Positions 60,427 to 63,862 of a stretch of 64,000 nt of DNA are shown one piece after another. The DNA is from Noviherbaspirillum sp. Root189 (GTDB lineage Bacteria > Pseudomonadota > Gammaproteobacteria > Burkholderiales > Burkholderiaceae_D), in the NCBI RefSeq assembly GCF_001428545.1, contig NZ_LMHZ01000005.1, forward strand, positions 63,510 through 127,509, read 5' to 3'. Both the position numbers and the translations under genes were made by a program. Position 1 is the first letter of the stretch. Every line of letters begins with the position of its first letter. The notes under the pieces were generated by a model. The model was not told the origin of the DNA and made no database searches. It saw only the letters and a list, made by a program, of their open reading frames with translations.

Positions 60427-60595
60427 TGATCAGGAGGAAGCGAGCGGGTGAAATCTGGTTGTAATCAGGTAAAAAGATCGAACATATGCGGCGTCAACTT
60501 TGACACAAGCTCCGGCCGATTCCCACTCCGTTGCACGGAGAAGGAACCGTACCAAGGCAGCCTATGCACTGCTCACTGAATATTGATTGAATTGA

Positions 60596-61291
60596 TTACG
60601 ACGCCCGGTCGTTACCCAGGCCCGGACGCCCCTTGCCGACTATCTTCGCGTAATACGCTGGTTGTGCGGATTCATAATAGCCTGTCGCAACACGCGCACA
60701 ATAAGTTGCGTCCTCAACCGGGGCAGCGACACGTGCACAATAGGATGTCTCAACGGGAGTAGCCACACGTGCACAATAGGCCGCATCGGGCTGCGCCACC
60801 CGTGCGCAGTAGGAAACTCCCTGGCCGGCAACACGAGCGCAATACGACCCTTCTTCACTTGTCACGCGCGCGCAATAGCTCTGCCCTGCCTTGGATGCCT
60901 TGCCAAATTCCTGTTCATACAAGCGGCGAGTCTGCGCTGCAGCTTCCACCAGGTTGGCGGCATCTTCGTCGTCACGCATGCCGAAATACGGAAAATGATG
61001 CAGGAAGTAGCCGAATACATGCGCACAGTCTTCCGCATATTTCATGGTATCGAGGATGTGCCCATGCCAGAATTTATCAACCTCGCTATTCGGCGTGATC
61101 GCCTCCTCCGGGTACTTCGCGATCAGTGCGAGAAAACGGCGATATTCCAGTTCGTGGCGGTCGGCTTCTTCGCGGCTCCAGCCGTGACCTTCCCTGGCAT
61201 CCATCAGCTTGAATTTGATCGCATCGAGATCCAATGCAAATACGGCATCAATCATTTGTTCCGGGGTCTTGTTGTGTGCTTGCTTATGCAT
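60596..61291 (-). CDS. Domain plus tandem YCARV-repeat protein (GRDP-like N-domain)
   Basis: A 231-residue protein. Residues 1 to about 135 resemble the glycine-rich-domain protein (GRDP / DUF1399-like) helical domain: VDKFWHGHILDTMKYAEDCAHVFGYFLHHFPYFG. The C-terminus (137-216) is six copies of YCARV spaced by 11-16 residues, and a seventh degenerate YYAKI. The codons for YCARV differ between copies, so the peptide repeat is under selection. The layout is like a RiPP precursor with a leader and multiple cores, but no modifying enzyme is near. ATG 61291 follows GGTGG. Confidence 0.75.
   Translation of the reverse strand: MHKQAHNKTPEQMIDAVFALDLDAIKFKLMDAREGHGWSREEADRHELEYRRFLALIAKYPEEAITPNSEVDKFWHGHILDTMKYAEDCAHVFGYFLHHFPYFGMRDDEDAANLVEAAAQTRRLYEQEFGKASKAGQSYCARVTSEEGSYCARVAGQGVSYCARVAQPDAAYCARVATPVETSYCARVAAPVEDATYCARVATGYYESAQPAYYAKIVGKGRPGLGNDRAS
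60644..60877 (-). repeat. Tandem YCARV peptide repeats (coding)
   Basis: Six YCARV units and one YYAKI at 11, 11, 11, 12, 13 and 16 residues apart, residues 139-216 of the gene at 60596. Spacers differ (TSEEGS, AGQGVS, AQPDAA and so on) and so do codons. Confidence 0.85.
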
Positions 61292-61660
61292 GTTGTGCCA
61301 CCTTTCTCGGTGAGTGAACGGGAGGTCTGGATCTTCATCTTTACAAGAAGAACAACGCGTCTTGCAACGTGGAAAATGTAGCACGCAGACAACCTTGCAA
61401 TCATGTAACTTGATTGAGCTGGCGCAAGCTTTTTGCATACCCTATTTCTTCGTGTCAATATACGCTCTGGTTATATGCACGAGCTTGAAAAACCGCCGTG
61501 GCCAGGCGTGTCATTGATGACGGTTTGCTGTAAAAAACCGTTACACTGCATTAATGCGTATCAGTCTCGTGTCGCCGGATATTCGTGACTTGTGCGTTCA
61601 GCCGTGTAGTCATCGCGCCATGCAAGGCTGATACGGCGAACAAATGGATTAAAAAGCAAG
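61292..61660. other. Divergent promoter region, no gene
   Basis: Lies between two divergent genes. ACGGTTT (61520-61526) and AAACCGT (61535-61541) form an inverted repeat about 120 bases before the kinase gene. No other feature is clear. Confidence 0.4.
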
Positions 61661-63862
61661 ATGAGCATTTCGCGCCGATTTCTGATTTCTCTCGTCATGT
61701 CTCCCGTCTGGTGGCTCGGCGTTGCCATTTCGCTTTTGCTCCATCTGCTTGTGGTACAGATTGTGGATGACAAAGCAAGGTCCCAGTTCGATTATCTCGC
61801 TGACAATGCGCAGACTGCGGTGCAGAGCCGGGTACGTTCGTACATCGATGTTCTGCGCGGCACGGCGGCGCTGTTTCAGACCGACGAAAAGATCACGCGC
61901 GAACAGTTCCGCGCCTATGTCCGCGAACTCAAACTCGAAAGCAGTTTCCCCGGTATTACCAATCTCAATTTTGCGCAGTACGTCGCAGGGGCGGACAAGC
62001 GCGCCTTTGAAGCATCGGTACGCCGCGATACCAGCGTTTCGTCGGTAGGCTATCCGGCCTTCGCCATCAAGCCGGCAGGCGAACGCAAGGAATACAACGT
62101 TCTGACCTATATCGAACCGATGGAAACCAACGCCGTCTCCTTCGGGATCGACATGGCGGCAAACAGCATTGCGGCAAATGCACTGGCGGTGTCGCGCGAT
62201 ACCGGCCAACTGGTGTCCTCCGGCAGGCTGATTCATATCACGGGACCGAATCAGCATATCGGCCTGGCCATGCGCGTGCCGCTGTATCGACTTGGCATGC
62301 CTGTGAAGAATGTCGCGCAACGGCGCGCCGCATACTATGGTTCGGTCGGCGCCGGTTTCGATATCAATCGCCTGATGCTGGGGGCCATCGACAAGAAAGT
62401 GCTGAGCACCATGCGGGTCCGGATATTCGATACCGGTCGCGATGATGAAAAGCGCGCCGCCGGGACCATGGATCCGCAGCATCTGATGTTCGATAGCGCG
62501 ACTTCTTCGAGCGCCGAGAACCGGTCTCCGGCGATCGATCCTTCCGTCGATGATCTGTTTGTCAAGCGGGTTTCAATGACCGTCGGCCCGCGCGTATGGG
62601 AAGCGGAAATCCTGGCGCGCAGATCAGCCCTGATCAACGGCTTCGATGTTTCCTTGTCCTGGATCGTGCTGATCGGCGGTCTGCTCGGCAGCACACTGCT
62701 GTACAGCATTTATTATTCGTTACTGACCGCGCGCCGGCGTGCGGTGGAACTGGCACGGGAAATGACGACTGATTTGCGCAACAGCGAGGCCAGTCTCGCC
62801 GAAGCGCAGCACATGGCGCGTCTGGGTAGCTGGACCATGGACCCTGCGTCCGAAGCCATGATCTGGTCCATGGAAACGTACCGGATATTCGGCGTGAGCC
62901 AGTCCCGCGACAGGCTGCGCTATCAGGAATTCCTTGCGCGGATTCATCCCGAAGACCGGGATCGCGTGCGCAAGGGATTGATCGATGGCCAGCCTGGTGA
63001 TGAAGGTTTCAATCATGAGCACCGCATCGTGCAGCTTGATGGCACAGTCCGATGGGTGCAGTCGATCGTCCGCTTCGGCAGCGATATGCAAGGCAAGGCC
63101 CTGCTGCGCGGAACGATCATGGACATCACCGACCGCAAGGAAACGATGGAGGCGCTGAAGCGCTCACAGGAGTTGTTGCGCGATCTGACCGCGCACCAGG
63201 ACCGCGTCAAGGAAGATGAACGCAAACGTATCGCCCGCGAGATTCATGACGAACTGGGCCAGACCCTGCTGGCGTTGCGCATCGATGTTTCCATGCTGGA
63301 TGCGCGCACCGCACAATCGCATCCGCGCCTCAATCAGAAGGTGCGCGACGCACTCAACCACCTCGATGCGACGGTGAAGACCATCCGCACCATCATCAAC
63401 AATCTGCGGCCCGCCGTACTTGACCTCGGGCTGACAGCGGCAATCGAATGGCAGGTCGCGGAGTTCCGCCGCCGTAGCGGCATCACCTGCGATCTCCTGA
63501 TGAGCGAGAAGGAGTTTTATCTTGACGATACGCGTGCAACCTCGCTGTTCCGCATCCTGCAGGAATCGCTCACCAATGTGATCCGTCATGCCAAGGCCAC
63601 GCACGTCGTCATTGAGTTGTATCGCGAGGCGGGACAGCTGGTCATGAAGATTACCGACAACGGCATCGGCATCTATCCTGAAACACGCAATTCGGCCAAT
63701 TCGTTTGGATTGGTCGGCGTGGAGGAGCGCATTCATGCGCTCAATGGAAAGTTTGTCATTACCAGTGCGCCCGGCAAAGGGACGACGCTGACAACTTATA
63801 TCCCGATAGACAGCGACGCGGTAGGAAACGCGCCGTTTAACCTGGTCGATACAAGCGGATAG
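61661..63862 (+). CDS. CHASE-PAS sensor histidine kinase (NarL-type, HisKA_3)
   Basis: A 733-residue membrane kinase. N-terminal helix ~11-37, a periplasmic CHASE domain ~70-225 (TREQFRAYVRELKLESSFPG; PAFAIKPAGERKEYNVLTYIEP), a second helix ~330-352, a PAS domain ~385-500 (MARLGSWTMDPASEAMIWSMETYRIFG), HisKA_3 H-box EDERKRIAREIHDELGQTLL (~525) and HATPase with FRILQESLTNVIRHAKA and KITDNGIGI. CHASE senses extracellular small molecules. The response regulator is not visible here. It starts at ATG 61661. Confidence 0.93.
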   Translation: MSISRRFLISLVMSPVWWLGVAISLLLHLLVVQIVDDKARSQFDYLADNAQTAVQSRVRSYIDVLRGTAALFQTDEKITREQFRAYVRELKLESSFPGITNLNFAQYVAGADKRAFEASVRRDTSVSSVGYPAFAIKPAGERKEYNVLTYIEPMETNAVSFGIDMAANSIAANALAVSRDTGQLVSSGRLIHITGPNQHIGLAMRVPLYRLGMPVKNVAQRRAAYYGSVGAGFDINRLMLGAIDKKVLSTMRVRIFDTGRDDEKRAAGTMDPQHLMFDSATSSSAENRSPAIDPSVDDLFVKRVSMTVGPRVWEAEILARRSALINGFDVSLSWIVLIGGLLGSTLLYSIYYSLLTARRRAVELAREMTTDLRNSEASLAEAQHMARLGSWTMDPASEAMIWSMETYRIFGVSQSRDRLRYQEFLARIHPEDRDRVRKGLIDGQPGDEGFNHEHRIVQLDGTVRWVQSIVRFGSDMQGKALLRGTIMDITDRKETMEALKRSQELLRDLTAHQDRVKEDERKRIAREIHDELGQTLLALRIDVSMLDARTAQSHPRLNQKVRDALNHLDATVKTIRTIINNLRPAVLDLGLTAAIEWQVAEFRRRSGITCDLLMSEKEFYLDDTRATSLFRILQESLTNVIRHAKATHVVIELYREAGQLVMKITDNGIGIYPETRNSANSFGLVGVEERIHALNGKFVITSAPGKGTTLTTYIPIDSDAVGNAPFNLVDTSG

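Follow-up and report, generated by a model that had tools for sequence, protein, structure and literature searches.

A hypervariable repeat gene beside a CHASE sensor gene: a candidate peptide ligand and receptor in Noviherbaspirillum and its relatives

The analysis of a 64,000-nucleotide stretch of DNA from Noviherbaspirillum sp. Root189 (the window) revealed a gene for a protein carrying six YCARV units next to a gene for a histidine kinase with a periplasmic CHASE domain. A sensor of this kind accompanies nearly every repeat-bearing relative of the gene, and the divergence of the repeated unit, or core, follows that of the CHASE ectodomain and not that of the linker or the kinase. The correlation is modest and is a demonstration of covariation, not of binding. 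From these comparisons of sequences we consider it moderately probable that the repeat protein is a precursor holding several copies of a short peptide ligand, for which the CHASE protein encoded next to it serves as receptor.

The repeat protein encoded in the window

The features of the two genes are listed in Table 1. The ATG of the repeat gene at 61291 is preceded by a ribosome-binding-like AGGTGG, and its stop codon occupies 60596-60598 on the minus strand. Scanning 60430-61700 for promoters and terminators revealed no element.

Table 1. Features of the repeat gene and the sensor gene in the window, and flanking genes in related loci
Feature	Position	Strand	Basis
Repeat-protein gene, 231 aa	60596..61291	-	ORF translation, AGGTGG-like site before ATG
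Helical N-domain, conserved, residues 1-131	60899..61291	-	20-sequence alignment, AlphaFold2, weak PF07173 match
Core unit 1, YCARV, residues 139-143	60863..60877	-	Sequence, codon comparison
Core unit 2, YCARV, residues 150-154	60830..60844	-	Sequence, codon comparison
Core unit 3, YCARV, residues 161-165	60797..60811	-	Sequence, codon comparison
Core unit 4, YCARV, residues 172-176	60764..60778	-	Sequence, codon comparison
Core unit 5, YCARV, residues 184-188	60728..60742	-	Sequence, codon comparison
Core unit 6, YCARV, residues 197-201	60689..60703	-	Sequence, codon comparison
C-terminal KGRPGL, form of RPx[LIFV] ending	60617..60634	-	Tail comparison over N-domain ORFs
Divergent partner kinase, TM-CHASE (periplasmic)-TM-PAS_3-HisKA_3-HATPase_c, 733 aa	61661..63862	+	Pfam, TM-like segments
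CHASE ectodomain, residues 77-263	61889..62449	+	Pfam; co-variation with core peptide
Cache-like GGDEF flanking gene	L060 7826-9400		
Cache-like GGDEF flanking gene	L062 7513-9288		
Cache-like GGDEF flanking gene	L073 10102-11646		
Cache-like GGDEF flanking gene	L076 10726-12333		

The N-domain was modelled by AlphaFold2 with block pLDDT values of 91-97 over residues 11-100. Alignment of 20 sequences showed D72, W75-H76-x-H78-I79, D81-T82, Y85, D88-C89, F93-G94, H98-H99, P101-Y102 and G104 to be invariant. An earlier note, made from the letters of the window, had compared this domain with the GRDP family. The likeness stood as a distant relationship, since all 25 aligned members of PF07173 match the N-domain profile at E up to 1 (best 4.4e-6). 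Membership of the family was rejected: the window protein scores 18.6 bits against a gathering cut-off of 22.7, and only residues 50-88 are matched. No Pfam model was above cut-off for the window protein, and no NCBIfam family covers it. The N-domain profile had no match among PDB sequences at E up to 10, Foldseek found none for the protein in PDB at E up to 0.001, and PADLOC has no model for either the repeat protein or the neighbouring kinase.

The six exact units that follow the N-domain are separated by spacers of 6 to 8 residues, and a degenerate seventh unit, AYYAKI, can be read near the C-terminus. When the tail was shuffled 20,000 times, two YCARV motifs never appeared together. All 75 pairwise comparisons of core residues between the units gave the same amino acid, and in 45 of them the codon was different. 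Since the copies share residues while their codons differ, conservation is at the level of the peptide and the repeats are not a fresh duplication of the DNA, exactly as the earlier note had stated on describing an N-domain followed by six such units. The C-terminal RPx[LIFV] ending is found near the C-terminus in 87 of 143 N-domain ORFs, the window included. Three class-level relatives without repeats (L211, L212 and L213) have a common CPNCGRR ... RPSF tail, so the RPx[LF] ending also occurs where there are no repeats.

AlphaFold2 placed short strands on every repeat unit, and the amyloid FapC was among the non-significant Foldseek matches (E 1.6). These observations would suit a structural or self-assembling repeat protein, a beta-solenoid or functional amyloid monitored by the CHASE sensor, in which stacking keeps the repeats alike. 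However, the block pLDDT over residues 131-210 is only 45-56, and no signal- or TM-like segment was found in the window protein which could direct secretion. Spacing of the units is uniform in only 18 of 122 repeat proteins, although the median CV is moderate (0.14). For a relative with 19 repeats the mean pLDDT was 40 overall, N-domain included, and that model is uninformative on the fold of the repeats. We consider a structural role very unlikely.

Distribution of the family and variation of its cores

An N-domain model matched 144 of 343 genomes of the window's family, in 12 of 44 genera, and 17 of 369 genomes of its class at E up to 1e-15, the window genome being counted in both cases. At 1e-20, matches were obtained in 9 of 399 order genomes and 5 of 299 phylum genomes sampled, numbers which include the family's own members and the window genome. 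Loci were scanned from 101 of the 144 positive family genomes, hand-picked among the matches listed, and five of the 16 class-level positives (window genome apart) were taken at larger size. The scan comprised 119 loci, every one of them chosen for an N-domain match. Left out by choice were L001-L003, L005 and L008, which come from the same genomes as later loci, as well as L009, L013, L014, L015 and short search loci; L014, from a MAG, is a broken copy next to a related sensor. The 119 loci contain 144 N-domain ORFs. L209 duplicates L010 and was removed for all counts based on 143 N-domain ORFs and 122 repeat proteins.

At least three [YFWHM][CS] dipeptides were present in the tails of 123 of the 144 ORFs, with a median of 9 versus approximately 1.5 expected from shuffled tails, and the enrichment had p up to 0.005 in 122 of these 123 (200 tail shuffles each). 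Homologues with and without repeats had been proposed as a check on the earlier interpretation; without the duplicate, 122 of 143 N-domain ORFs carry three or more short repeats. The 122 proteins have 68 distinct consensus 5-mers, for example YSGRA, YSGRV, YSGVP, YCARV, WCAAP, FSGAP, HSGVV and WCTRT. The core consists of about six residues: Ala, then Tyr, Phe, Trp or His, then Cys or Ser, and then three or four variable residues. The consensus residue after the aromatic one is Ser in 68 of the proteins and Cys in 54.

Inside a protein, identity between units is 0.75-0.97 at positions -1 to +4 and 0.35-0.47 in the spacers (positions -6 to -2 and +6 to +12). Between proteins it is 21-50% at positions 0 to +4, and the preceding Ala (position -1) hardly varies (92%). 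The search pattern itself constrains positions 0 and +1 in part, but not -1 or +2 to +4. In 120 of the 122 proteins, different codons encode 10% or more of the identical core residues (median 42%), and very recent duplication is excluded for these. Only two proteins look freshly duplicated, and fresh DNA duplication was rejected as the source of the repeats; the earlier note had named recent duplication of the copies as a possible refutation. These data showed that codons turn over while the cores of one protein stay alike, and that cores differ strongly between lineages.

The remaining 21 ORFs have fewer repeats by this pattern. In the Thiomargarita MAG L007 six DTATCTDKI repeats are present, a type which falls outside the search pattern. 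Six loci of the same family (L077, L126, L193, L196, L204 and L205) have degenerate, truncated or fragmentary repeats beside a CHASE gene. Repeat-less relatives were also seen on plasmids. The one from Azospirillum (L226, 4971-6990) is followed by genes for a SAM methyltransferase and a TauD-type dioxygenase. The one from Halomonas (L227, 1999-4399) is annotated as a glycine-rich domain-containing protein-like and is adjoined by genes for an acyl-homoserine-lactone synthase and a LuxR regulator.

Linkage and co-variation with a CHASE sensor

The partner gene had been overlooked in the earlier note. The window kinase (also present as L058:11071-13269) scores 140.3 bits with the Pfam CHASE model against a cut-off of 25, and TM-like segments at residues 16-34 and 324-342 lie on either side of the domain. 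The test for TM segments on both sides is crude and was passed by only 61 of 109 CHASE ORFs.

A CHASE ORF was located within 500 bp of 101 of the 123 repeat ORFs and within 2.6 kb of 20 more; after removal of the duplicate, 120 of 122 repeat proteins have a CHASE sensor within 2.6 kb. In nineteen of the 20 farther cases the locus has another copy of the repeat gene within 500 bp of CHASE, and the twentieth is L004. The two repeat ORFs without a CHASE ORF are in L006, a contig of 7.8 kb, and in L207, whose genome has a further copy (L208) with CHASE at 154 bp. In 87 of 100 close pairs the sensor gene comes first on the same strand, ten pairs are divergent as in the window, and in three the repeat gene comes first. 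Fourteen of the 21 ORFs with fewer repeats are without CHASE, and the other seven, in the six same-family loci named above, have it. No CHASE ORF was found in the 13.6 kb around the repeats of L007 or in the stretches read around the repeat-less relatives of Azospirillum and Halomonas.

Nineteen loci (L066, L131, L133 and L135 among them) have two repeat genes, mostly with different cores, and one CHASE ORF, or two in the case of L143. Three repeat genes and three CHASE ORFs are present in L175, and two of each in L177. The CHASE domain is fused to GGDEF-EAL in Undibacterium (L010), two Cupriavidus replicons (L223 and L224) and Variovorax (L225); in the betaproteobacterial MAG L004, CHASE and PAS-GAF-GGDEF-EAL were read apart on two overlapping ORFs. 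Because the kinase output is swapped for GGDEF-EAL in several lineages, the constant partner of the repeat gene is the CHASE input domain. Clustering of neighbouring ORFs found no other gene common to the loci among the matches listed, apart from GGDEF/Cache-like genes in four. In these Noviherbaspirillum loci (Table 1) the repeat gene lies between the CHASE kinase gene and a gene for a GGDEF protein whose ectodomain is Cache-like; the Cache match in L060 is under the Pfam cut-off.

The kinase does not strictly depend on the repeat gene, since a close CHASE-kinase orthologue, 53-60% identical in the ectodomain, persists in four of the seven same-genus genomes that lack the N-domain gene (L216 6282-8657, L217 6118-8304, L218 6048-8312 and L219 7442-9643). 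Within 3 kb of the CHASE kinase, all four loci showed neither an N-domain nor any ORF bearing three identical cores. A dCache-GGDEF gene closely follows the kinase gene in L216 and L217.

Distances of core, CHASE, linker, kinase and N-domain were compared over 99 repeat/kinase pairs. With kinase, N-domain and linker controlled, core and CHASE distances were correlated at r=0.254, a value reached in 0 of 500 permutations. The corresponding value for core and linker was -0.062, although the linker has diverged about as much as CHASE (0.54 and 0.57), and that for core and kinase, given CHASE and N-domain, was -0.128. The N-domain also tracked the core (0.198, 0/500), as expected for two parts of one gene. 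When both pairs and permutation were confined to kinase clusters at three cut-offs, core and CHASE gave 0.147 (1/500), 0.361 (0/500) and 0.300 (20/500), and the linker gave -0.047 (318/500), -0.052 (26/500) and 0.048 (24/500). With all pairs kept and permutation inside the clusters, the observed values were reached in 4, 66 and 210 of 500; this test is not significant with fine clusters, which leave little to permute. Dereplication to 82, 64, 36 and 18 sequences gave 0.212 (0/500), 0.161 (0/500), 0.171 (3/500) and 0.123 (41/500).

The spacers between units served as a comparison from the same tails. For spacers and CHASE we obtained 0.067 (47/500) with all pairs, 0.021 (23/500) within clusters and -0.018 (98/500) with the core controlled, and in the same test the core gave 0.166 (0/500) and its positions +2 to +4 alone 0.09 (4/500). 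At kinase distances of 0.1-0.2, the CHASE distance was 0.276 for pairs with similar cores (86 pairs) and 0.391 for those with different cores (37 pairs), a contrast which weakens at large distances. Linkage or joint transfer alone would predict the opposite, because the kinase end of the sensor usually lies between CHASE and the repeat gene.

To our knowledge, few bacterial CHASE receptors have a known ligand. Among solved CHASE structures, those nearest to the window ectodomain were 6k62 (E 1.3e-9), which we take to be the cytokinin sensor PcrK, and 3t4j, the plant kinase AHK4 (E 6.2e-4). These kinases share the sensory domain of the window kinase and differ in having small-molecule ligands; we know of no repeat gene accompanying AHK4 or PcrK. 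Their cytokinin sensing would suit an arrangement in which a small molecule from outside (metal or metabolite) is bound or buffered by the repeats and is also what the CHASE domain senses, so that the two proteins never touch. Metal could be bound by the Cys repeats together with the invariant His and Cys of the N-domain. However, with Ser as the commoner consensus residue in place of Cys, and with a diversity of cores that would exceed the need of a common small ligand, we regard such indirect coupling as extremely improbable.

Ligand-contact residues of AHK4 are named in an excerpt of PMC3491891. CHASE columns aligned by hand with these contacts were coupled to the core more than others (p 0.038; five scored of six mapped). 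Inclusion of neighbouring columns gave p 0.074, and comparison of the stretch 157-207 with the rest gave p 0.0066. This weakly suggests that core-coupled columns are commoner in the stretch aligned with the cytokinin pocket of AHK4.

Export, modification and a proposed peptide signal

No signal- or TM-like segment was present in the first 60 residues of any of the 122 repeat proteins, and clustering of the neighbourhoods found no exporter, protease or modifying enzyme common to the loci among the matches listed. Of the features expected of a pheromone-type system, linkage of ligand and receptor genes and co-variation with the ectodomain were observed, and a recognisable export or processing route was not. 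The data suggest that the pair would work like a peptide pheromone and its receptor; we do not file it under a known pheromone family because an export route was sought and not found. The lack of an export-like segment and of a common exporter or protease speaks against a ligand-receptor relationship, as do the receptor-only genomes, the occurrence of L007 without CHASE, the six loci whose imperfect repeats lie beside CHASE, the stratified test that lost significance with fine clusters, and the CHASE ORFs that did not pass the TM test.

Linkage and co-variation fit equally well a repeat protein that stays uncut and acts as a polyvalent partner of the sensor, its cores being docking motifs which bind the ectodomain or cluster sensors. 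The many copies and the varying length of the spacers suit polyvalent motifs, and the short strands modelled on the units, though of low confidence, point the same way. However, a cytoplasmic protein without an export signal could not reach the ectodomain either, and hypervariable cores would be less expected of a purely intracellular scaffold. An uncut partner of this type appears to us rather unlikely.

If the gene does encode a ligand precursor, the repeat protein would leave the cytoplasm by an unlinked route or on lysis, and proteases would then free the cores. The near-invariant Ala before the aromatic residue suggests a cleavage site, with cutting after Ala. Interchange of Cys and Ser after the aromatic residue suggests a nucleophile at that position, and the freed peptide may be cyclised through it or use it otherwise. 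The peptide would bind the CHASE pocket and set phosphotransfer or c-di-GMP as a lineage-specific self-signal.

Among the matches listed, the open-access literature held no description of such a repeat-gene/CHASE pair. Autoinducers of Gram-negative bacteria are contrasted with the oligopeptides of Gram-positive bacteria in an excerpt of PMC5007282; if the proposal is true, linked multi-copy ribosomal peptide signalling would be added to the former. We tentatively suggest that these genes provide Gram-negative bacteria with hypervariable, lineage-specific peptide signals in multiple copies, and that CHASE receptors with exchangeable outputs (phosphorelay or c-di-GMP) read these signals. They would then be a bacterial counterpart of pheromone-repertoire evolution, in which receptor-only lineages are possible eavesdroppers. 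For about a hundred CHASE receptors a linked gene now supplies a candidate ligand, and such peptides (YCARV, YSGRV, WCAGP and HSGVV among them) are open to immediate synthesis, which makes ligand, specificity and co-evolution directly testable.

Several known systems share parts of this arrangement. The AcbA/SDF-2 precursor of Dictyostelium has a single core, which is not known to be hypervariable or genetically linked to its receptor; agr precursors also have one core each, and precursors of the alpha-factor type carry a secretory signal and Kex2 sites. The nearest likeness in receptor type is SDF-2, a processed peptide cut from a larger protein and acting via the CHASE domain of the histidine kinase DhkA (excerpt of PMC7316887), although its host is a eukaryote and AcbA is unrelated to the window protein. 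In agr, according to an excerpt of PMC5007282, a short variable peptide closed into a ring by Cys and processed by the membrane endopeptidase AgrB is sensed by AgrC, a receptor kinase varying in its ligand-binding part. The window system differs in having many cores, a CHASE ectodomain and Gram-negative hosts, and no processor was seen nearby. Fungal Kex2-processed precursors such as alpha-factor likewise hold repeated copies of a peptide (excerpt of PMC7329392). The repeat proteins described here, in contrast, showed no secretory signal.

Among multi-core RiPPs with large leaders, proteusins and cyanobactins have a conserved leader followed by one or more cores and are encoded adjacent to their modifying enzymes. 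Their layout of leader and cores is like that of the window protein; no modifying enzyme common to the neighbourhoods was found here among the matches listed. In a strict RiPP precursor the N-domain would be a leader for enzymes encoded elsewhere, which would modify the aromatic-Cys/Ser motif before release. The leader-like conserved N-domain with its multi-core tail would fit, and so would the interchange of Cys and Ser, as for a nucleophile residue. The earlier note had read the layout of the protein as that of a RiPP precursor and had reported no rSAM, YcaO or protease gene nearby. The latter agrees with the adjacent ORFs, as judged from their translations, and the former is half supported: the layout, the conservation at codon level and the lineage-specific cores bear it out, and a linked dedicated modifying enzyme was not found.

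Co-occurrence of YcaO or peptidase genes with the repeats, which the note had proposed to examine, did not single out a partner. YcaO was present in 12 of 12 carriers of the repeat gene and five of seven non-carriers (17 of 19 genomes), and C39 peptidase in all 19 genomes, carriers and non-carriers alike. MNIO genes tilt towards carriers, with 25 of 33 versus 12 of 25 non-carriers of the family; for the window genome and seven other carriers among these 33 there was no match. A dedicated MNIO, YcaO or C39 partner was therefore rejected, as all three occur in non-carriers. With MNIO only tilting to carriers and missing from the window genome, and with YcaO and C39 widespread, the window protein does not merit the name of RiPP, and a strict RiPP precursor seems unlikely. 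In 22 of 33 carriers the MNIO gene is on the same contig as the repeat gene at a distance of 46-83 kb (for instance, G689:C1:1379357 versus repeat genes at 1315156, and G620:C1:3056236 versus 3118549). MNIO genes with similarly long frames are also found in the non-carriers G015, G016 and G411, and the steady distance is thus probably plain synteny.
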